From Oscillospiraceae bacterium (GTDB lineage Bacteria; Bacillota; Clostridia; Oscillospirales; Oscillospiraceae), in contig JAFQCX010000039.1 in the NCBI GenBank assembly GCA_017416245.1, positions 1 to 39,065 on the forward strand: DNA of 39,065 nucleotides, in the 5' to 3' direction. A model generated the notes under the pieces. The model had not been told where the DNA came from and made no database searches. It was given only the letters and a program-made list of their open reading frames with translations. The position numbers and the translations under genes are program-made. Of the stretch, positions 9,559 to 21,500 are shown in pieces (position 1 is the stretch's first letter; the number at the start of each line of letters is the position of its first letter).

Positions 9559-11136
9559 TTATAAATTCTCTATCAGCGCCTCAGCGCATTGCATACCGTC
9601 AATAGCCGCAGACATAATGCCGCCTGCGTAGCCTGCACCCTCACCTGCCGGGTACAAGCCCCGTAGACCAACAGACTGACGGGTTTCATCCCGCAGGATC
9701 CGCACAGGAGAAGAGCTTCTGGTTTCCGGGGCTGTCAGCACGCTATCGGGATGGGCAAAGCCCTTGAGATTACCATCTAACCGGGGCAATGCCTCTTTCA
9801 GCGGATCGGTGATCTTAGCGGGCAGCACCTCATGCAGATCACACCAGGTTACGCCCGGCCGGTAGGTTGGCTTTACGCTGCCGGCGCCCACGGAAGGTCT
9901 GCCATCCAAAAAGTCACCTACCGTTTGGGCAGGGGCAGCATAATTTCCACCGCCGACTCTGTATGCTTTTTGTTCGATTTCCCGTTGCCAGTGCATACCT
10001 GCAAGGGGATCCTGGGAGGGAAAGTCTTTGGGATTGAGGGTGACCAGCAGAGCAGCGTTTGCATTTTCTCCCTCACGATCTGCATAACTCATACCGTTGG
10101 TGACCACGCCCCCCTCTTCGGAGCTTGCCGCCACCACGTATCCACCGGGACACATACAGAAGGTGTATACCGTTTCGTTATCCAAATGCTTCACCAGTTT
10201 ATAGTCTGCCGGTGGCAACACAGGGTTATATTGGCCGTACTGTGATGCATCAATCACCTGTTGCGGATGCTCTATCCGCACGCCCATAGCAAAGGGCTTC
10301 GCCTCCAACGGAATGCCCGTTTCCTGCAAATAGGTAAAGGTATCTCTGGCGCTGTGGCCGATAGCGAGAATCACCTGGTCACAGGGTACGGTTTCATTAT
10401 GATTGATGATCAGGCCGGTAAGTGATCCGTTTTCCTGATTAATACCCGTTACCTGGGCGTTGAACCGCACCTCACCACCCAAGGAAATAATTTTCTGGCG
10501 TAAATTCTGCACCACCGTCAGCAGCACATCCGTTCCCACGTGGGGTTTGGCATCAAACAGAATATTTTCCCTTGCGCCCATTTTTACAAACTGCTCCAAT
10601 ATCCAGCCGATTCTGGGATTGTTCACCCCTGTATTCAGCTTTCCGTCGGAAAATGTACCGGCGCCGCCCTCACCAAATTGCACGTTGCTCTTATCGTCCA
10701 GTTCCCCTGTTTCCCAAAATTTTTGCACCTTTTCGTGACGGGAAACCGCGTCCTCACCGCGCTCCAAAATCAGCGGTCGCAGACCTGCCATAGCCAGCAC
10801 CAGGCCGGCAAACATCCCTGCAGGGCCAAAGCCCACCACCACAGGATGGTGTGCTGGCGTTTTGTCGCATTTGGGGACTTTATAATACTTGTTATTTGCC
10901 AGGCTTGCACGTTTGCAGCCCGACTGTTTCAGTATCTTGTTTTCACTGCCGTCTACTGCCACATCCACCGTATAGACGATTCGCACATCCGGCTTCTTTC
11001 TGGCATCCACAGAACGGCGCACAATGGTCAGCTTCCGAATCTTCGAGGCAGAAATGCGCAATGCCTGCGCCGCCTCAAAAGGAAGCTGAGAGATATTGTG
11101 CTCCGGCGGCAGGCTGATTTCTCTTATACGAATCAT
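9559..11136 (-). CDS. FAD-dependent dehydrogenase, COG2509 family
   Basis: This 525-residue flavoprotein begins MIRIREISLPPEHNISQLP. It has an N-terminal alpha/beta domain of about 95 residues, then the FAD dinucleotide fold VVVGFGPAGMFAGLVLA (about 98-114), an ERGEDAV segment, an FGEGGAGTFSDGKLNTG motif characteristic of COG2509, and a C-terminal GEGAGYAGGIMSAAIDG FAD-binding motif. The family is predicted to be a cytosolic oxidoreductase of unknown substrate. ATG 11136 overlaps the stop of the HI0933-type gene (ATGA), and AAAGGA precedes it by seven bases. The overlap says the two flavoproteins are translated together. Confidence 0.88.
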   Translation of the reverse strand: MIRIREISLPPEHNISQLPFEAAQALRISASKIRKLTIVRRSVDARKKPDVRIVYTVDVAVDGSENKILKQSGCKRASLANNKYYKVPKCDKTPAHHPVVVGFGPAGMFAGLVLAMAGLRPLILERGEDAVSRHEKVQKFWETGELDDKSNVQFGEGGAGTFSDGKLNTGVNNPRIGWILEQFVKMGARENILFDAKPHVGTDVLLTVVQNLRQKIISLGGEVRFNAQVTGINQENGSLTGLIINHNETVPCDQVILAIGHSARDTFTYLQETGIPLEAKPFAMGVRIEHPQQVIDASQYGQYNPVLPPADYKLVKHLDNETVYTFCMCPGGYVVAASSEEGGVVTNGMSYADREGENANAALLVTLNPKDFPSQDPLAGMHWQREIEQKAYRVGGGNYAAPAQTVGDFLDGRPSVGAGSVKPTYRPGVTWCDLHEVLPAKITDPLKEALPRLDGNLKGFAHPDSVLTAPETRSSSPVRILRDETRQSVGLRGLYPAGEGAGYAGGIMSAAIDGMQCAEALIENL

Positions 11137-12347
11137 TTTGCATCCTTTCCTGCGTTGTATCCTGCCAAGCAGCCGGAGCTCCAAGCCCATTGCAGGTTAT
11201 AGCCACCACAATCACCGTCAATATCCAGCACTTCGCCACAGGCATACAAACCGGGAACCAAGCGGCTTTCCATTGTGGCTGCATCAAATTGCTCCGTAAG
11301 AACACCGCCTGCCGTAACCTGCGCGCTATCCATACCAAGGGGCTCGGTCAGCGCGATTTCCAGCGATTTTACCGCGCGGCAGACCTCCTCTGCCTCTGCG
11401 TTACTCAATTCCTTTGCATAGGTTTTTCCTTTGATCCCTGCGGTTTTACACAAGACTCTGCCCAATCGGTTATGGAGAATGCCTGTGAGCAGGTCCTCCA
11501 TGGGCAGGTTGGAATTTCTTCGCTGCAACAACGCTTCATAAAGGTTATCACGTGACCAATCCGGCAGAAAGTCCAGCTTTGCTGTCCATTCACCGCCGCC
11601 GTAGCACACATCACGGGATATCTCAAAGACCACAGGGCCGGAGATCCCCTGCTCTGTCAGTTGCAATTCCCCTGTGCTTTCGGAAAACAGCTCACTATCT
11701 CTCATAATCTGCACGTGGCAGTTGGCGCGGACACCTTTCAGGCCGGCAATGCCGCCCCAGCCGGTTTTGATCTGCACCAGCGACGGACGGAGTCTTGTTG
11801 CTTTGTGACCCAGTTTTCCCAGTAATTTATAGCCGGACATAGTACCACCCAGCTTGCTGCCGGCAAGACCACCGCAAGCAATAATCAACTTGTCGCAAGA
11901 AACTGTTTCGTCACTGCCGATAACAGAAAAGCCGCACTCGTTCTTTTGAATTTTTTCTGCCTCAAAGCCCAGCTTCAATGTAATGTTAGGGCGATTCAAA
12001 TTGAGCCGCAGTACATCCACAACAGAATTTGCCTGATCGGAATAGGGGTAGACTTTACCGCTGGGCTCAACCACTGTATAAAGCCCTAGATCCCGAAACC
12101 ATTTCAGCGTAGCATCCGGGTTCATAGCACCAATGGCAGGCAGCACAAAATCAGGCTGCTCCCCGTGGTAGCCGCCCCTACTTGCGTTCATATTGGAAAG
12201 ATTGCAACGTCCGTTTCCCGTGGCTTGCAGTTTTCTGCCCACACGATTCTGCCGATCCATAAGGATGACATTCACATTGGGATTTTCAGATGCGGCAAGG
12301 GCTGCTGCCATGCCGGATGCGCCTGCACCGATAATGCCTATGACCAT
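11133..12347 (-). CDS. HI0933/BaiN-like NAD(P)/FAD-dependent oxidoreductase
   Basis: This 404-residue protein has the HI0933-family signature: MVIGIIGAGASGMAAALAA at the N-terminus (FAD Rossmann fold), VGRKLQATGNGRCNLSN (about residues 39-55), a central GGLAGSKLGGTMSGYKLLGKLGH segment, and a C-terminal AGGVLTEQFD... CGEVLDIDGDCGGYNLQWAWSSG motif. BaiN of Clostridium scindens, described as acting on oxo-bile acids, is in this broad family, but the family is widespread and I do not assign bile-acid activity. The start follows AGGTGA closely; the upstream promoter at 12370-12398 supports it. It is first in an operon with the COG2509 flavoprotein and probably the C_GCAxxG_C_C gene. Confidence 0.88.
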   Translation of the reverse strand: MVIGIIGAGASGMAAALAASENPNVNVILMDRQNRVGRKLQATGNGRCNLSNMNASRGGYHGEQPDFVLPAIGAMNPDATLKWFRDLGLYTVVEPSGKVYPYSDQANSVVDVLRLNLNRPNITLKLGFEAEKIQKNECGFSVIGSDETVSCDKLIIACGGLAGSKLGGTMSGYKLLGKLGHKATRLRPSLVQIKTGWGGIAGLKGVRANCHVQIMRDSELFSESTGELQLTEQGISGPVVFEISRDVCYGGGEWTAKLDFLPDWSRDNLYEALLQRRNSNLPMEDLLTGILHNRLGRVLCKTAGIKGKTYAKELSNAEAEEVCRAVKSLEIALTEPLGMDSAQVTAGGVLTEQFDAATMESRLVPGLYACGEVLDIDGDCGGYNLQWAWSSGCLAGYNAGKDAK

Positions 12348-12369
12348 ACATTCACCTGCTTTCTCTCCT

Positions 12370-12398
12370 ATTATAGTAAATATTCCACCCAGAAACAA
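12370..12398 (-). promoter_or_regulatory. Promoter of the flavoprotein operon
   Basis: On the minus strand TTGTTT (12393-12398) and a perfect TATAAT (12370-12375) have a 17-base spacer. It is back to back with the ylmH promoter. Confidence 0.7.
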
Positions 12399-12409
12399 GG
12401 AAAACTTTC

Positions 12410-12437
12410 TTGCATTGCTAAAATACTGTGGTATAAT
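12410..12437 (+). promoter_or_regulatory. Extended -10 promoter of ylmH
   Basis: TTGCAT (12410-12415) and TATAAT (12432-12437) have a 16-base spacer, and a TGn extension precedes the -10. Confidence 0.72.
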
Positions 12438-12464
12438 ACCATAAGAAACCATAAAGGAGCGCCT

Positions 12465-13250
12465 ATGGACCGAAGTAATATTGAAAAAATTGCAAAAACC
12501 GCGGATGACAAGGTGCTTCTTGCTAAGGTTTGGGATAAAATCCACAGGGGCATACAAAAAAACATCCCCGCAAGCACCTGTTTTCTCTCCTTGCGGGAAT
12601 TGGAGATGACCAAATATCTGTTTGGACAGGCAGAGGGCTTATATGCCTTTGGCGGCTATAAAGACGCGGAACGGCAAATGCTGGTATTCCTGCCGGAGTA
12701 TTTGGATGAAAGTGCATTGCTGGGTGAAGAATCTCCCCTATCCTGTCTGCGGGCAACCTTCTATGAGGGCGACACTCCCACCCATCGGGATTTTTTGGGC
12801 GCGCTGATGGGCGCCGGTATAGCAAGAGAAACTGTGGGTGATATCTGTGTTGGAAAGGGCTGCTGTGATTTCTTTGTTACAAAAGAAATTGCCCCCTATG
12901 TATTGCAGAATTTTCACTCCGCAGGCCGGACCAAGGTTCGTTTGGAGCAGATTCCGCCAGCTGAGGTTTTTGTACCCCAGGCAGAAACCAAAGAGATTCG
13001 CGACACTGTATCCTCCCTTCGGTTAGATAGTGTGATTTCTTCCGGGTTTCGGGTAAGCAGAGGGACAGCTACAGAATATGTCAGCGCCGGAAAGGTTGCT
13101 ATCGACGGTCTTCCCTGCGAAAAAGCAGACAAGATCGTTGCAGAGGGAGCAAAAATCTCCGTCCGTGGTTTGGGGAAAATTCAACTGAAAAGCATCAATG
13201 GGCAGACCAAAAAAGGTCGCATTTCCATTGTGATCAATCGTTATGTATGA
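12465..13250 (+). CDS. ylmH: YlmH-type S4 RNA-binding protein
   Basis: This 261-residue protein starts MDRSNIEKIAKTADDKVLLA. Its N-terminal part matches the YlmH family (a pseudouridine-synthase-like region with FLSLRELEMTKYLF and YKDAERQMLVFLPEY), followed by VGDICVGKGCCDFFV and a C-terminal S4 domain (about residues 180-250: RLDSVISSGFRVSRGTATEY...VAIDGLPCEKAD). YlmH homologues act on ribosomes or ribosome-associated RNA and are usually encoded near the cell-division cluster; here that context is absent. AAAGGAG precedes the ATG by six bases. The longer frame starting at 12165 is antisense to the flavoprotein and is rejected. The DUF896 gene follows 10 bases after the stop codon. Confidence 0.88.
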   Translation: MDRSNIEKIAKTADDKVLLAKVWDKIHRGIQKNIPASTCFLSLRELEMTKYLFGQAEGLYAFGGYKDAERQMLVFLPEYLDESALLGEESPLSCLRATFYEGDTPTHRDFLGALMGAGIARETVGDICVGKGCCDFFVTKEIAPYVLQNFHSAGRTKVRLEQIPPAEVFVPQAETKEIRDTVSSLRLDSVISSGFRVSRGTATEYVSAGKVAIDGLPCEKADKIVAEGAKISVRGLGKIQLKSINGQTKKGRISIVINRYV

Positions 13251-15714: not shown

Positions 15715-17340
15715 TTAGCCCTGCAAAATGAAGTCCAGCAGTTGGTCCATATTCTTCTTTCCGAAGGATACCTTTTCATCGTTAATGACAAGGCACGGTA
15801 CGCTCATCACATTATATTGGTTCTTGAGATGCTCAAAATGACGAATGTCATAAACATGGGCCGTAATATTTGGATTGGCTGCAGCGATCCGTTGGGTCGC
15901 CACCACCAGATCCGGACACATGGTACAAGATAGCGTGACCAGGATTTTGATATCTGTTTTGTTGGTAACGGCTGCGATCTGTTCCCGGGTGGCTTCATCC
16001 AGCGCCTGCCCCGGTCCTGCCGCGTTGTACAAACCCAGCACAAAGGAAGTAAACTCGTGGCCGCCGGGAACGCCGTGAAAGGCAAGTCCTGTGGGCGCGC
16101 CATCTATCTGACACACCTCCACGCAGGGGGCAAATGTTTCTGCTGCCTGCCTATTTGTTATCTCAAGGGTCAGCTTGTCCGTCAGTGACGACAGAACCGT
16201 TACAAAGTTCTCCAGTTCTGCCGAAATCGGGCGGTTATCCAAATAGAGTTTCAGCAGAAGCGGACTTTCCATTCGGGCAAACACCGTATCCAACTGCTTG
16301 CGCATTTCTGCTGTGAACAGTTCTCCGGATTCTTCCGATTGGTGGGTATCCACGGTAACGGTTGTTTGGGTCTGCTTTTGGGCAGGCGCATCGGCGCGCA
16401 GGCCTGTTTTTCGGTGCAATGCAGCCACATATTTTTCAAGCACTGTTGCTGCCAAGGCGCCGTCGCTGGTGGCAGTCACGACCTGCCGCAGGGGCTTTAT
16501 ACACACGTCCCCCGCGGCATACACGCCGTTTACGCTTGTTTTTTGATTTTCGTCTGTAATAATATAACCCTGTTCATTCAGCTCTATCAAGCCCTTGACC
16601 GTTTCTGTGGCAGGCGCATATCCAGCAAACACAAACACCCCAAAGGATTCCTGGCTTTTATACTCCGTCACCTCCCCGGTGACGGTATTTTTGTATCTTG
16701 CATAGGTCAGACCGTTATCGCCGGACACTTCTTCCAGCACCGTATTGGCGAGAACTGTAATCTTCTCGTGATTTTTGGCTTGATCTGCAACGGAGGCGGC
16801 ACAGGAAAAATCATCCTTGCGAATGAGGATCGTCACGTGCCGGGCAAATTTAGTCAAAAATACGCTTTCCTCTGCCGCGGCATAACCGCCACCCACTACA
16901 AAGATCTCCTTGTCGGTAAAAAACTCCCCGTCACAGGTGGCGCAATAGGCAACACCATGTCCCTTGTGTTCCTCTTCTCCCTTAAAGCCAACATTTTTGG
17001 GATGGGCGCCAGTGGCCAAAAGGATACCTAAGCAGCGGTAATCTCCCCGGTTGGTGCGCACAGTTTTTACATCGCCGGAAAGATCAAACCCAGTTGCTTC
17101 CGCGATCTGGAATTCCGCGCCAAAGGCCTCGCCCTGCTGATATATGGTGTCTGTTAACGCCTTGCCACTGACCTTTTCGATTCCGGGATAGTTAACGACC
17201 TCGTGGGTAATGGCAATTTGACCGCCAAACTGTTCCTTTTCCAGCACCAGCACCCGATATTTTGCCCTTGCCAGATATAAGGCGGCGGTCAGCCCCGCAG
17301 GGCCGCCGCCAACGATGATCACATCGTATAAATTATCCAT
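15715..17340 (-). CDS. AhpF-like flavin reductase with thioredoxin-fold domain at the C-terminus
   Basis: This 541-residue protein has an N-terminal thioredoxin-reductase-type module (residues 1 to about 310): MDNLYDVIIVGGGPAGLTAA for FAD, redox pair CATC (Cys133/Cys136) and a VNGVYAAGDVC FAD motif. A C-terminal double thioredoxin-fold module follows (about 345-541) with a CTMC redox pair (Cys472/Cys475). In standard AhpF the thioredoxin-fold module comes first, so the order is reversed here. The likely role is NAD(P)H-dependent reduction of the adjacent peroxiredoxin. The start codon overlaps the ahpC stop by one base (TAATG). It is the last gene of the dfx-ahpC-reductase operon and ends before a terminator. 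Confidence 0.88.
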   Translation of the reverse strand: MDNLYDVIIVGGGPAGLTAALYLARAKYRVLVLEKEQFGGQIAITHEVVNYPGIEKVSGKALTDTIYQQGEAFGAEFQIAEATGFDLSGDVKTVRTNRGDYRCLGILLATGAHPKNVGFKGEEEHKGHGVAYCATCDGEFFTDKEIFVVGGGYAAAEESVFLTKFARHVTILIRKDDFSCAASVADQAKNHEKITVLANTVLEEVSGDNGLTYARYKNTVTGEVTEYKSQESFGVFVFAGYAPATETVKGLIELNEQGYIITDENQKTSVNGVYAAGDVCIKPLRQVVTATSDGALAATVLEKYVAALHRKTGLRADAPAQKQTQTTVTVDTHQSEESGELFTAEMRKQLDTVFARMESPLLLKLYLDNRPISAELENFVTVLSSLTDKLTLEITNRQAAETFAPCVEVCQIDGAPTGLAFHGVPGGHEFTSFVLGLYNAAGPGQALDEATREQIAAVTNKTDIKILVTLSCTMCPDLVVATQRIAAANPNITAHVYDIRHFEHLKNQYNVMSVPCLVINDEKVSFGKKNMDQLLDFILQG

Positions 17341-17903
17341 TACAGCTGTCCTACCAAATCCAGGCTGGGTTTCAGCGTTTCAGCGCCGGGCTTCCAGTTT
17401 GCAGGACAAACCTGATCGCCGTGGGCGTGGACAAATTGGCAAGCCTGCACTTTCCGCAGAAGCTCCTCGGCATTTCTGCCCACATTACCGGCGGATACTT
17501 CATAGCCTACGATCTTTCCCTCGGGATTGACGATGAACGTTCCCCGTTCCGCAAGACCGTCTGCCGCAATCAGCACTTCAAAATCCTTGGAAATAGCGTG
17601 GGTGGGATCAGCCAGCATAGGGTAATTGATCCTCTTAATGCGGTCAGACGCATCGTGCCAGGCCTTGTGGACAAAGTGGGTATCGGTGGATACGGAATAA
17701 ACCTCACAGCCGATAGCCTTGAACTGTTCGTACTTATCTGCCAGATCCTCAAGCTCTGTGGGACACACAAAGGTAAAGTCAGCAGGATAGAAGAAAAACA
17801 CACTCCATTTGCCCAGCATATCCTCCTTGGATACGAATTTAAAATCGTTCTCGTGGAATGCGTAGGTGCGAAAATCGGATACTTCCTTGTTGATCATAGA
17901 CAT
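17340..17903 (-). CDS. ahpC: Peroxiredoxin AhpC-type
   Basis: This 187-residue typical 2-Cys peroxiredoxin reduces hydrogen peroxide and organic peroxides. The peroxidatic Cys47 lies in FYPADFTFVCPTELEDL, an active-site Arg lies in the central part, and the resolving Cys is in VCPANW near residue 167. GGAGG nine bases upstream supports the ATG at 17903. Its start is three bases beyond the dfx stop, with the ribosome binding site inside dfx, and its stop overlaps the reductase start, so the three genes are one operon. The reductase downstream is the probable electron donor. Confidence 0.95.
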   Translation of the reverse strand: MSMINKEVSDFRTYAFHENDFKFVSKEDMLGKWSVFFFYPADFTFVCPTELEDLADKYEQFKAIGCEVYSVSTDTHFVHKAWHDASDRIKRINYPMLADPTHAISKDFEVLIAADGLAERGTFIVNPEGKIVGYEVSAGNVGRNAEELLRKVQACQFVHAHGDQVCPANWKPGAETLKPSLDLVGQL

Positions 17904-17906
17904 AGC

Positions 17907-18281
17907 TTAATCCCTCCATAAATTGTGTTGATTGCAAAATGCGTAAACTGCCCGGACCTCATCCCCGTCACAGATGGCAAATTTGGCTCTTGGCTCATCG
18001 TCCGGGTCCAAATGAGCATACTGGATTCCGTGTTCCGTTTCCAGGCATACCCATTCGATATAGTGCTCCGAAGTCATGGGATGTTGGGTCGCACCCACCG
18101 TGACGTGGACCGTATTGCCCTCTTTTTCATAGAGTGGGATATGTTTCTCTTGAGAGGCTTCTGTGGTGCCGGGTGTGAGTTCGTGCATTTTTTCTCCGCA
18201 GCAATAAACGGGAACACCCTTGTCCCGGATCATCGCAATAATATTGCCGCAATGGTTACAAATATAGAATTTTTGTTTCAT
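17907..18281 (-). CDS. dfx: Desulfoferrodoxin (superoxide reductase)
   Basis: This 124-residue two-domain protein reduces superoxide to hydrogen peroxide without making oxygen, the anaerobe strategy. The N-terminal desulforedoxin domain holds the Fe(Cys)4 ligands in YICNHCGN and VYCCGEKM (Cys8, Cys11, Cys27, Cys28). The C-terminal domain holds the Fe(His)4Cys site: EKHIP, QHPMTSEHY and the terminal CNQHNLW. The start at 18281 follows GGAGGGATATT; the longer frame to 18332 has no ribosome binding site. The peroxide it makes is the substrate of the next gene product, AhpC. Confidence 0.94.
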   Translation of the reverse strand: MKQKFYICNHCGNIIAMIRDKGVPVYCCGEKMHELTPGTTEASQEKHIPLYEKEGNTVHVTVGATQHPMTSEHYIEWVCLETEHGIQYAHLDPDDEPRAKFAICDGDEVRAVYAFCNQHNLWRD

Positions 18282-18371
18282 AATATCCCTCCTTCTATGA
18301 AAAGTGTGTCCCGAATAGCATAAATAATTCATTCATTGCAGGGTATACTTGCTATAAAAGGAAGTGGAAAA

Positions 18372-19784
18372 ATGGCACAAAATAATCATTACAAAAAAGG
18401 CTTTGTTCCATACGCATTGGCGGCATTTCTCATCGGCTTTGTAGGTGGCTTTTCTACCGTATTGGGTCCGGCTTTTGTGCGTGATCTGGACATAGCCTAC
18501 AACAACACCACCTGGACAGCTTTAGCGCAGGCTATGTCCACCGCCGCCTGCGCGCCGATTTTGGGCAAGGTCGGTGATGTGATCGGCCGCAGAAGAACTT
18601 TGCTTTTGGGCATTGCGGTGTTCACCCTTGGCAATGCGCTGTCTGCCCTGGCGAACTCCCTTGTATTTATGCTGGTTGCCCGGTTTGTGGTAGGCATCGG
18701 CACGGCAGCAATGGGTCCTGTGATCCTTGCCTATATTGCAATGGAGTTTCCCCCGGATAAAATCGCCAAAGGCTTTTCTTTGTATATGCTGATCTCCAGC
18801 GCATCCGTTATTTTTGGACCAACGCTGGGCGGTTTGATGATTTCCTCTTACGGCTGGCGCGCTATGCTTTGGGTCTGCGTGGCAATTTGCGCTGTCACTT
18901 TTGGTGTCTGTCTTATAACCGCAGGAAAAGAAATTTCCCCGCCACAAAAACTGCAAAGCTTTGACCTTTTGGGTGCGGTACTGGTGTTGCTTTTCTTCAG
19001 CCTTGTGCTGTGCATTCCCTCGTTTGGACAGAATTTCGGCTGGACATCAAAGGCTTTTCTCGGTGTGTTGATTGTTGCCAGCGTTAGTTTAGCCGGCCTG
19101 ATTGCAGCAGAAAAACGGGCAGTGCGTCCCATTCTGCCCGGTAGATTTATGAAACGGCGGGCATTTATCCTTAGTGTGATCGCCCTGTTTCTGACACAGG
19201 GTCTTATGCAGGCCAATATGACCAATACCATCGTTTTTGTCAATTACACCCAGGGTGCAGCCAGTGCTGTATCCGGCTACGCAATTTCGGTGATGTATCT
19301 GGGTATGTCTTTGGGTGCTGTTCTTTTAGGCCCTTTGGCAGATAAATTCGAGCCAAAACGGGTGCTGACCGGCTCACTGATTCTCACAGGTGTTGGTTGC
19401 GGCTTTTTGTACTTGTTTTCAGCCACTACCTCTACCCTGCTGCTGATGGCATCGCTGGGCATCCTGGGGTTAGGCTTGGGTGGTAACGGCACCATCTTTA
19501 TGAAGGTGGTGCTATCCGGCATTTCCCAGCAGGATGCCGGCGCAGGCACCGGCACCTACGGTTTGTTTCGCGATTTGTCTGCGCCCTTCGGTGTTGCCGT
19601 TTTTGTGCCGTTGTTTACCAACCAGATCACAGATCTGATCGCATCCGGCGCTACAGAAGCTTCTGCCGCCGTTCAGGCCATTCACTTGTTGGCGGTCGCC
19701 GAATTACTTTGTGTCGTTACGGGTATTGCGGTAATTTTCTTTCTTCCCAAAATTCACAACAAAGGAGCAGCAGCATGCGATTAA
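18372..19784 (+). CDS. MFS transporter resembling bile-acid carrier BaiG
   Basis: This 470-residue integral membrane carrier has 14 or so hydrophobic segments, with the MFS loop 2-3 motif GKVGDVIGRRRTLLLG near residue 70. Its N-terminus (MAQNNHYKKGFVPYALAA... DIAYNNTTWTALAQAMSTAACAP) resembles, from memory, the clostridial bile-acid transporter BaiG, which has a closely similar YKKGFVPF opening and an YNNTTW segment. A drug/H+ antiporter (DHA2) reading is the fallback. The ATG at 18372 follows GGAAGTGG; an upstream in-frame TTG at 18336 is less likely. It overlaps the SDR gene by ten bases, so carrier and dehydrogenase are translated together and probably share a substrate. Confidence 0.82.
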   Translation: MAQNNHYKKGFVPYALAAFLIGFVGGFSTVLGPAFVRDLDIAYNNTTWTALAQAMSTAACAPILGKVGDVIGRRRTLLLGIAVFTLGNALSALANSLVFMLVARFVVGIGTAAMGPVILAYIAMEFPPDKIAKGFSLYMLISSASVIFGPTLGGLMISSYGWRAMLWVCVAICAVTFGVCLITAGKEISPPQKLQSFDLLGAVLVLLFFSLVLCIPSFGQNFGWTSKAFLGVLIVASVSLAGLIAAEKRAVRPILPGRFMKRRAFILSVIALFLTQGLMQANMTNTIVFVNYTQGAASAVSGYAISVMYLGMSLGAVLLGPLADKFEPKRVLTGSLILTGVGCGFLYLFSATTSTLLLMASLGILGLGLGGNGTIFMKVVLSGISQQDAGAGTGTYGLFRDLSAPFGVAVFVPLFTNQITDLIASGATEASAAVQAIHLLAVAELLCVVTGIAVIFFLPKIHNKGAAACD

Positions 19785-20560
19785 AAGATAAAGTGGTATT
19801 GATCACCGCCTCAACAAGGGGTATCGGCCTTGCCTGTGTGAAGGCCTGCGCAATGGAAGGCGCGAGAGTTTATATGGCAGCGCGCAATATGCAACAGGCG
19901 CAAGAAATCGCAAACACATTCACCGACGTAAAATGTGTATACAATGATGCAACCAAGCCGGAAACCTTTGCTTCTGCGGTGAAGAATGTGATATCTGACG
20001 CCGGTCGCATTGATGTGCTTGTCAATAATTTTGGCACATCCAATCCCGGCAAGGATCTGGATTTTATGGCTACAGATCCTCAGGTTTTTCTGGATACTGT
20101 GAACTTAAACCTGCGCAGTGTCTTTATGGCAAGTCAAGCTGCCGCAAAGTATATGGCAAGATCCGGCGGAGGCAGCATTATCAACATTTCCTCTGTAGGA
20201 GGAAGCGTGCCGGACATTTCCCAGGTAGCATACGGCACAAGCAAGGCAGCGATCAACTATCTTACCAAGCTGATCGCCGTACAGGAGGCAAAGAATCACA
20301 TTCGGTGCAATGCGGTATTGCCGGGAATGACCGCAACCGAAGCGGTGGAAAACAACCTGTCAGAGGATTTTCGCAGTCTGTTTCTGCGTCATATTCCCCT
20401 GGGCAGAATGGGTCTGCCGGAGGAAATTGCACAGGCTGTGGTCTATTTTGCCAGCGATGCTGCCGCATACACCACCGGCCAAATCCTCTCCGTATCCGGC
20501 GGTTTTGGCTTGGCGACCCCTGTTTACGGCGATTTGGCAAAGAAGGACAATCGAAGATGA
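19775..20560 (+). CDS. Short-chain dehydrogenase resembling 7-alpha-hydroxysteroid dehydrogenase
   Basis: This 261-residue classical SDR has the glycine motif TASTRGIG (residues 11-18), active-site Ser140, Tyr153 and Lys157 (NISSVGG, YGTSK) and NNFG at 84-87. Arg15 and Arg37 (MAAR) sit where NADP(H)-dependent clostridial 7-alpha-HSDH bind the 2'-phosphate. The C-terminal half (IRCNAVLPGM... FRSLFLRHIPLGRMGLPEEIA... GGFGLATPVYG) is strikingly like the Clostridium sardiniense (absonum) enzyme as I recall it. That enzyme oxidises the 7-alpha hydroxyl of primary bile acids. A generic 3-oxoacyl-ACP reductase is the alternative. AAAGGAG precedes the ATG, and a terminator follows. Confidence 0.82.
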   Translation: MRLKDKVVLITASTRGIGLACVKACAMEGARVYMAARNMQQAQEIANTFTDVKCVYNDATKPETFASAVKNVISDAGRIDVLVNNFGTSNPGKDLDFMATDPQVFLDTVNLNLRSVFMASQAAAKYMARSGGGSIINISSVGGSVPDISQVAYGTSKAAINYLTKLIAVQEAKNHIRCNAVLPGMTATEAVENNLSEDFRSLFLRHIPLGRMGLPEEIAQAVVYFASDAAAYTTGQILSVSGGFGLATPVYGDLAKKDNRR

Positions 20561-20570
20561 CTTATGGCAG

Positions 20571-20602
20571 AAAAAAGCGTAGCCCGCAGGCTACGCTTTT
20601 TT
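20571..20602. terminator. Bidirectional terminator between SDR and dprA
   Basis: Perfect 14-bp arms AAAAAAGCGTAGCC / GGCTACGCTTTTTT with a CGCA loop lie between convergent genes. Confidence 0.88.
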
Positions 20603-20612
20603 GGGTATTCGT

Positions 20613-21500
20613 TTAAAACAAGCTTTCAACATTGGGTTGCAAGGCACATAGATCAGAAAGGTCTTTCGATGCGATCAGGGTTGCGCCCAGCTGCTTCAGT
20701 TCCAGCGCTGTGGAACTGCCGTCAGCATAACAGAACACAGGACTCCAGTTATTGTGGAGGTTTTTCAATGTGCCAGCCCACGTGCCACCATTTTGTCCGT
20801 TACACTGGGCAACAATGGTGATATACCCGAGGGTATGGATCACCCGATTTCGGCTCAATGCCCGCATAGCGGAAAAGGGCAAATCAAAGCTATCCTCAGA
20901 CAGATACAGCACATTTTTCACAAGGGGACATTTCTCCAATTCGTCTGCCACCACGCTGATCACGCTGCCTCCATTTTCCAGGCAGGCTTGCTGGGCAGCT
21001 CTGTCTGCGCCTCTTGCGTTGCCGGAAACCAGTGTGAATCCCTGTTTGGCCACTTCCCTGCCAACAGTTTCTGCAAAGAGCCGGTTTGCATCACTTAACT
21101 GGCGGCTGCCAACAAGGGAAACTGCCGGTCTGTTAAGCAACGCCACATCTCCCTTTGCCCAAAGGCAACCGGGGGCATCCAAGCCCAGGCGTTTTCGCAC
21201 CGCTTTGGGATATGCCTCGCTCACCCGGCTGATAGGGTAGCAGTCCTGTCTGTTTCCGCGGTTTATATAGCTTGAAAGTCTATCCTCTTCCGACAAAAGG
21301 GTGACGATCCGCAACGCCGTCCGCCTGTCGTAGCCCAATGCCACCAGGTCATCCTCGGCCAGCTCCCGGGATTGCTTAGGCTTTTCCATTTGGGTGACGC
21401 GCATAGCAAGGCTGCGGAATTGGGCAACCGTCAAGGGTTTTCTCTCCATATCCCCCAACTGACTGGTCAACAGCAGGAAACCCTGCTCTTTGGCGGTCAT
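20613..21500 (-). CDS. dprA: DprA/Smf-type DNA processing protein
   Basis: This 295-residue protein has the DprA Rossmann-like domain in the central and C-terminal part (about residues 100-270): SLVGSRQLSDANRLFAETVG, the signature FTLVSGNARGADRAAQQACL, and SVISVVADELEKC. DprA binds single-stranded DNA that enters the cell and loads RecA; in non-competent bacteria its role is unclear. The N-terminal 95 residues are helical with no motif I recognise, and no winged-helix C-terminal domain is evident. It overlaps the DEAD-box helicase gene by four bases (ATGA). The usual Clostridia context next to topA is absent here. Confidence 0.85.
   Translation of the reverse strand: MTAKEQGFLLLTSQLGDMERKPLTVAQFRSLAMRVTQMEKPKQSRELAEDDLVALGYDRRTALRIVTLLSEEDRLSSYINRGNRQDCYPISRVSEAYPKAVRKRLGLDAPGCLWAKGDVALLNRPAVSLVGSRQLSDANRLFAETVGREVAKQGFTLVSGNARGADRAAQQACLENGGSVISVVADELEKCPLVKNVLYLSEDSFDLPFSAMRALSRNRVIHTLGYITIVAQCNGQNGGTWAGTLKNLHNNWSPVFCYADGSSTALELKQLGATLIASKDLSDLCALQPNVESLF

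Follow-up and report, generated by a model that had tools for sequence, protein, structure and literature searches.

The window analysed here (the whole stretch of 39,065 nucleotides from an Oscillospiraceae bacterium, contig JAFQCX010000039.1 of assembly GCA_017416245.1) corresponds to contig C35 in a genome bin of 1.55 Mb and 66% completeness. It contains a pair of genes that are probably involved in the handling of bile acids. The first (18372..19784, forward strand) encodes a 470 amino acid (aa) major facilitator superfamily (MFS) carrier that resembles BaiG, and the second (19775..20560, forward strand) encodes a 261-aa short-chain dehydrogenase/reductase (SDR), an HdhA-type 7alpha-hydroxysteroid dehydrogenase (7alpha-HSDH) that is predicted from its sequence to be NADP-dependent. 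The ten-base overlap described in the initial annotation of this DNA was confirmed, with positions 19775-19784 common to both open reading frames (ORFs). Directly past the SDR gene is an intrinsic-terminator-like hairpin (20571..20602, forward strand) with 14 pairs, a CGCA loop and U6 closing the 3' arm (-22.4 kcal/mol, z -4.93), which agrees with the operon end proposed at this position; the hairpin is absent from the list produced by a consensus terminator scan.

Three genes are transcribed divergently from this pair. They encode a desulfoferrodoxin of the superoxide reductase type (17907..18281, reverse strand; 61.8 bits with PF01880, cut-off 22.2, and 106.5 bits with TIGR00320, under its cut-off of 146.9), the 187-aa peroxiredoxin AhpC (17340..17903, reverse strand; TIGR03137, 301.1 bits, cut-off 272) and a 541-aa AhpF-like flavin disulfide reductase that includes a thioredoxin-fold domain (15715..17340, reverse strand; TIGR03143, 714.3 bits, cut-off 687.65). 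An inverted repeat at 18303..18349, AGTGTGTCC-N29-GGGTATACT, lies in the intergenic region between the divergent arms (18282-18371); it has no strand and has AATAAT at its centre. A sigma-70 promoter scan of positions 18200-20700 found 3 candidates compared to 2.9 in shuffled sequences, none of them wholly within the divergent gap.

The SDR scores 396.7 bits with NF049979.1, the NCBI equivalog model for clostridial 7alpha-HSDH, exceeding the cut-off of 350; the remaining HSDH models among the 25 listed for this protein are far under their cut-offs. All seven of the pair proteins scanned, that of the window included, pass NF049979, the lowest being that of L135 (358.2 bits); the other pair loci are described below. 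Among solved chains, the NADP-dependent 7alpha-HSDH of Clostridium absonum (sardiniense; PDB 5epo) is the top match at 245 bits, with the runner-up at 140.5. The two proteins are 48.6% identical overall (123/253) and 53.8% identical over the last third (43/80). This is the most similar third, as the initial annotation had it, although its wording ("very like" the C. sardiniense enzyme) is too strong. Ser140, Tyr153, Lys157, Arg15 and Arg37, the residues on which the annotation relied, are all present and align to C. absonum Thr145, Tyr158, Lys162, Arg16 and Arg38, respectively. In an alignment of 58 SDRs (one from the window and 57 from the 60 pair loci, the remaining three being too short or containing a stop sign), which are 45-53% identical to the C. 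absonum enzyme, Ser140, Tyr153, Lys157 and Arg37 are invariant and Arg15 is arginine in 57. In the available text on the C. absonum structure, Thr145 replaces the serine and a third arginine, Arg194, lies near the NADP phosphate (PMC4785404). The C-terminal tail of the window SDR, GGFGLATPVYGD, fits the C. absonum pattern (GGFxLxTPxY), which is not found in E. coli HdhA or FabG.

In a tree of 81 rows, the window SDR falls in a set of 60 rows, all of them pair loci except L017. The sister of this set comprises the C. absonum enzyme and four lone HdhA genes, while the E. coli and Brucella 7alpha-HSDHs, BaiA2 and FabG lie outside; support (SH-aLRT, an approximate likelihood ratio test) is 82 for the clade of 65 rows that contains C. 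absonum and 97 for that of 68 rows. The tree was built by a quick method, with no 7beta- or 12alpha-HSDH among its references, and the node uniting C. absonum with the lone genes was marked by the program as a meeting of long branches. Assignment to FabG or to the sugar dehydrogenases, the placements that the annotation had set against its own, was rejected: the SDR scores 178.3 bits with TIGR01830 (FabG; cut-off 297.75) and 201.6 bits with its second-best model, glucose 1-dehydrogenase PRK07231 (cut-off 215), and it is nearest to C. absonum 7alpha-HSDH instead. Homology predicts a 7alpha specificity. The lone hdhA genes of same-family genomes (L007-L011) are similar in that NF049979 is passed by all four that were scanned (L007, L008, L009 and L011), but they differ in having no BaiG-like carrier within the 13-19 kb fetched around them (L017-L021). 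Elsewhere in the genome of the window, the SDR L003 (G000:C26:14100-14840) groups with another at L055:5446-6246, which lies near a fragment of a BaiG-like carrier in G248. L003 may resemble 12alpha-HSDH, but neither of the two SDRs was matched by an NCBIfam model at E 1e-60.

The resemblance of the carrier to BaiG, which had been suggested from recall of its N-terminal sequence, is real. The carrier is 61% identical to Extibacter muris BaiG over 471 columns and 59% identical to Proteocatella sphenisci BaiG, compared to 20% for E. coli EmrB, and it is not placed among the DHA2 drug exporters: its score with TIGR00711 is 133.4 bits, under the cut-off of 230.2. Since E. muris BaiG is as weak (149.5 bits), this model cannot decide between import and export. 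The two BaiG genes are flanked by BaiB, BaiCD, BaiE, BaiF and BaiH, as recognised with references from loci of the same scan; the identity of these operons was checked with E. muris BaiE, which matches 4l8o (360.5 bits), and Proteocatella BaiA2, which matches 4is2 (452.5 bits). As far as the available text of these sources goes, E. muris converts cholate to deoxycholate via 7alpha-dehydroxylation (PMC7781625), P. sphenisci carries a bai operon (PMC9426597) and BaiG is an importer of unconjugated primary bile acids. A renewed search of eight family genomes at E 1e-8 gave the BaiG-like gene as the sole match in each, indicating that the BaiG-like family is well apart from other MFS proteins in those genomes.

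Carrier trees were built with 69 rows (the selection used for the SDR tree, from which stretches with a stop sign were excluded) and with 89 rows (the short fragments L015, L054 and L055 excluded), after seven loci identical to named ones had been dropped. The BaiG proteins of the five bai operons group in a single clade (SH-aLRT 96) amid the carriers of the pair loci, which are not one clade (11 label changes in the 89-row tree). The root is unsure, because EmrB, the sole outgroup, is placed differently in the two trees. L115, L121 and L127 form a distinct clade of BaiG-like carriers without HdhA; L115 and L121 have a lipoprotein-like ORF downstream (both with the stretch GMGGIAPGDRFAG), and L127 has an ABC-transporter ATPase-like ORF 1.3 kb downstream of the carrier. 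L117 and L118 encode BaiG-like carriers (63%) followed, in the place of HdhA, by a gene with a start that appears thioesterase-like by eye. The carrier at L076:10001-11374 is interrupted by one internal stop, the pair locus being intact in other respects; this reflects either sequencing error or decay.

That the locus lacks the rest of a bai operon, as the initial annotation described it, is true of the window: BaiB, BaiCD, BaiE, BaiF and BaiH references gave no match there, the remainder of the 66%-complete bin not having been searched for bai genes. A bai operon remnant was rejected on the same grounds. As none of these five genes lies beside the carrier, no 7-dehydroxylation is expected from the pair. 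The bai operons in our set (Extibacter muris, Dorea sp. D27, Lachnospiraceae CE91-St61, Proteocatella sphenisci and Peptacetobacter sp.) share with the locus a BaiG that is 58-61% identical to the window carrier, but differ in these adjoining genes and in that the inverted repeat was not found in them. BaiG-like genes of 43-49% identity also occur in same-family genomes, and seven such loci were fetched whole for comparison only. L023, L049, L050 and L051 are bai-like operons, with a BaiB-like ligase, BaiF-like transferases and a BaiG-like carrier 42-45% identical to that of the window; L048, L052 and L053 are not. L050 has a BaiE-size gene, L049 has a BaiH match (72%), and both L023 and L049 hold an HdhA-like SDR (42%), that of L023 scoring 274.2 against the NF049979 cut-off of 350. 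Within the window, an HI0933-like flavoprotein is encoded at 11133-12482 (PF03486, 223.4 bits), approximately 3 kb past the end of ahpF. C. scindens BaiN belongs to this same family, but the family is widespread.

The arrangement of carrier and SDR recurs in many genomes. The locus set used for these counts consists of the best 80 of 120 confirmed carrier relatives in named genomes, ranked by likeness to the window carrier; the window itself is outside the counts. Five of the 80 are bai operons and 75 are not. HdhA is encoded directly behind the carrier in 60 of the 75 (59 of the 71 that have at least 300 bases downstream), and the carrier-HdhA pairing is a conserved module, beyond chance. Where at least 1.5 kb of upstream sequence is available, 39 of 50 pairs have a divergent ahpC and/or ahpF (36 with ahpC, 27 with desulfoferrodoxin), while none of the five bai operons has such an arm. 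The divergent operon is therefore probably not incidental to the pair, and the suggestion that it may be so is unsupported given this frequency and the inverted repeat common to these loci. By family label, 33 of the 60 pairs are Oscillospiraceae, 6 are Lachnospiraceae, 2 are Eubacteriaceae and 19 have none. A ruminant host or a RUG label, which we take to mean rumen-derived, appears in 41 of the 60 pair-locus titles (the RUG label alone in two), and 38 titles name colon, rectum or cecum. Only one pair record, that of Oscillibacter sp. ER4 (L067), does not carry a MAG label. The loci are not independent, as some share genome bins (L062/L065, L076/L110 and L097/L100) and others are near-copies (L056-L058). 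Divergence is correlated between the carrier and HdhA (r 0.84, n=57), the carrier and AhpF (0.89, n=38) and HdhA and AhpF (0.90, n=36), with values of 0.78 for AhpC with either the carrier or HdhA. These correlations fit joint inheritance, but vertical descent would give rise to them too.

The inverted repeat between the two arms has the commonest form AGTGTGTCC-N29-GGACATACT. Allowing up to 2 mismatches per half, it is present in 42 of 46 divergent intergenic regions (the window and 45 loci), compared to a mean of 0.78 and a maximum of 3 in 100 composition shuffles. When gaps of 14-75 bases were searched, 41 of the 42 repeats had a gap of 28-31 bases (57 in L104), and a central AATAAT was counted by eye in 33. 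In L103, both halves are altered in matching fashion, to AGTATAACC and GGTTATACT. The strict repeat occurs once in the genome of the window, at the position given above, and in 3 of 400 family genomes, always at the module; it was not found elsewhere in the 1.11 Mb of the 80 loci, including the bai loci. This pattern is stringent, marking 3 of 9 sampled genomes that have a carrier of at least 60% identity. The carrier-facing half persists upstream of carriers without a detected ahp arm (L076, L081, L105, L107, L113, L115, L122 and L127; ahpF is partially matched at L122, and the entire repeat is retained at L076), suggesting that it may be part of the carrier promoter or an operator on it. The repeat is probably a control element shared by both arms.

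The distribution of the module among relatives is patchy. At E 1e-60, no carrier was found in any of nine sampled same-genus genomes, nor was a full-length AhpF: seven of the nine have 40-45% matches over approximately 310 residues and two have nothing at this threshold. HdhA was sought in only three of the nine and was found in none at E 1e-50. The prfB genes of all nine are 80-89% identical to that of the window, which supports the assignment of the contig to this genus. Six other genomes of the family have all or some of the module, and full-length AhpF was detected in three of them (G170, G209 and G386). Composition does not show transfer. The GC content of the module (0.47-0.52) is close to that of its surroundings (0.50 and 0.46), and the third-position values (GC3) of the carrier (0.54) and HdhA (0.53) are slightly below those of the other genes measured (0.56-0.64); a compositional sign of recent transfer was rejected on both measures. 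No clean empty site was found in the same-genus genomes, in all nine of which a DEAD-box helicase gene adjoins dprA; prfB is on another contig in eight of them (not G135).

We consider it likely that the locus is a bile acid module of gut Clostridia that combines import, 7alpha-oxidation and the co-expressed removal of superoxide and peroxide under a shared element. The BaiG-like carrier would import unconjugated 7alpha-hydroxy bile acids (cholate and chenodeoxycholate), probably driven by protons, as for BaiG. With NADP+ as cofactor, the HdhA-type SDR would then reversibly oxidise the 7alpha-hydroxyl to a 7-oxo group, producing NADPH and a bile acid that is less membrane-active. Superoxide and peroxide would be removed by the divergent arm (desulfoferrodoxin, AhpC and AhpF), and expression of both arms together through one bidirectional control element is proposed to give a combined response to bile and oxidative stress. 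The analysis establishes the protein families, the gene arrangement, its recurrence, its patchy occurrence and the element shared by the arms; we infer the substrates and the direction of flux from the families named, and co-expression and its benefit are likewise inferred. The initial annotation had proposed a stand-alone unit for uptake and oxidation of 7-hydroxy bile acids. Both proteins survive the sequence tests, and uptake plus oxidation is the most likely reading at the level of sequence, but the unit is probably not stand-alone, as the divergent operon is part of the recurring arrangement.

Several observations weigh against this interpretation. C. absonum Arg194, one of three arginines at the NADP phosphate, corresponds to Glu189 in the window SDR, and the site is occupied by 38 Glu, 19 Asp and 1 Ala across the 58 pair proteins. 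The pair SDR clade is sister to, not within, the group that holds the sole characterised clostridial enzyme used, by way of the long branches flagged above. HdhA is lacking behind 12 of the 71 non-bai carriers with enough sequence, where the downstream sequence is varied; 11 of 50 pairs have no ahp arm; and L083 and L084 have the carrier and the ahp arm without HdhA, despite more than 1.6 kb of downstream sequence. Full-length AhpF was not found in G395, G005 or G034 (the module reaches the contig end in the first two, and G034 has the pair without the arm). High correlations of divergence are also expected from vertical descent, and ours were computed without an unlinked control gene; the loci are related, making the repeat count less independent than the shuffles suppose. 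PF02275, the bile salt hydrolase family, has no match in the incomplete genome of the window or in three of six other genomes that have all or some of the module. Finally, the hindgut products named in the available text of a dairy-cow study are deoxycholate and 12-keto compounds, not 7-oxo bile acids (PMC9750977).

The carrier could be a bile acid importer while the SDR acts on the 12alpha-, 7beta- or 3-hydroxyl, or on several steroids. The modest identity of the pair SDRs to the C. absonum enzyme leaves room for this, as do Met185, Val191 and Leu195, which follow the PG motif, are fixed in 58 of 58 and differ from C. absonum; 12-ketoLCA is also a named bovine hindgut product in the text cited above. 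We nevertheless find this improbable, given that every scanned pair protein passes the 7alpha-HSDH model and that the other HSDH models are so far from their cut-offs. A different steroid or amphiphile of herbivore guts, such as a plant sterol or a saponin aglycone, would suit the predominance of ruminant labels, but is very unlikely, as the carrier and the SDR are each independently closest to bile acid proteins among those compared. It is also conceivable that the carrier is an exporter, in which case bile acids that leak in would be oxidised and the 7-oxo product pumped out as part of a detoxification-and-efflux unit. The best solved relatives of the carrier by sequence are drug or antiseptic exporters, and both it and E. 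muris BaiG weakly match the DHA2 efflux model; as this model does not separate the window carrier from the published importer, and as identity to BaiG is three times that to EmrB, we give an export role a low probability.

The alternative that we regard as somewhat more serious, though still doubtful, is that the ahp arm is an ordinary old neighbour retained by vertical descent, with no tie to bile acids. Shared descent would also produce the correlated divergence, and the pairs without the arm are compatible with it. However, the block is seen repeatedly in loci with either family label (Oscillospiraceae or Lachnospiraceae), the carrier and full-length AhpF are both absent from all nine same-genus genomes, and a symmetric element with a nearly constant gap lies between the arms. 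In an extension of the bile acid module that we consider unlikely, the five genes would be one transferable redox unit of ruminant hindgut anaerobes, in which oxidation of the bile 7-hydroxyl yields NADPH for AhpF and AhpC and a dedicated regulator acting on the repeat switches all of the genes. If this were true, host bile would donate electrons for the defence against oxygen. Most AhpF enzymes are specific for NADH, and use of HdhA-made NADPH by this AhpF is speculation.

No published description of the module was present among the matches listed in a search of titles and abstract starts of the open-licence literature. The desABCD operon of Clostridium scindens, as its available description indicates, similarly places an HSDH and a putative carrier in one operon, but belongs to a glucocorticoid side-chain system; we compare the two by gene arrangement, from that description (PMC7996314). 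The paper on the cloning of the C. absonum genes for 7alpha- and 7beta-HSDH reportedly mentions a possible transporter gene nearby, so a carrier beside an HSDH may not be novel in itself. What is new here is the BaiG and HdhA pair as a conserved module, joined to peroxide and superoxide defence with a divergent element, and with the rest of bai absent from the window.

Discussion of BaiG usually treats it as a component of the operon for 7-dehydroxylation. In our set, 60 of the 75 BaiG-like carriers outside bai operons are instead tied to a 7alpha-HSDH gene, mostly beside oxidative stress genes and largely in ruminant loci. In the available text, a KEGG-term survey of gut genomes from dairy cows reports three 7alpha-HSDH genomes, assigned to Escherichia flexneri (two) and Yoonia (PMC9750977). 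With only three such genomes recorded, the module may be an overlooked potential source of 7-oxo bile acids. The module provides a concrete, testable link between the handling of bile acids and defence against oxygen.

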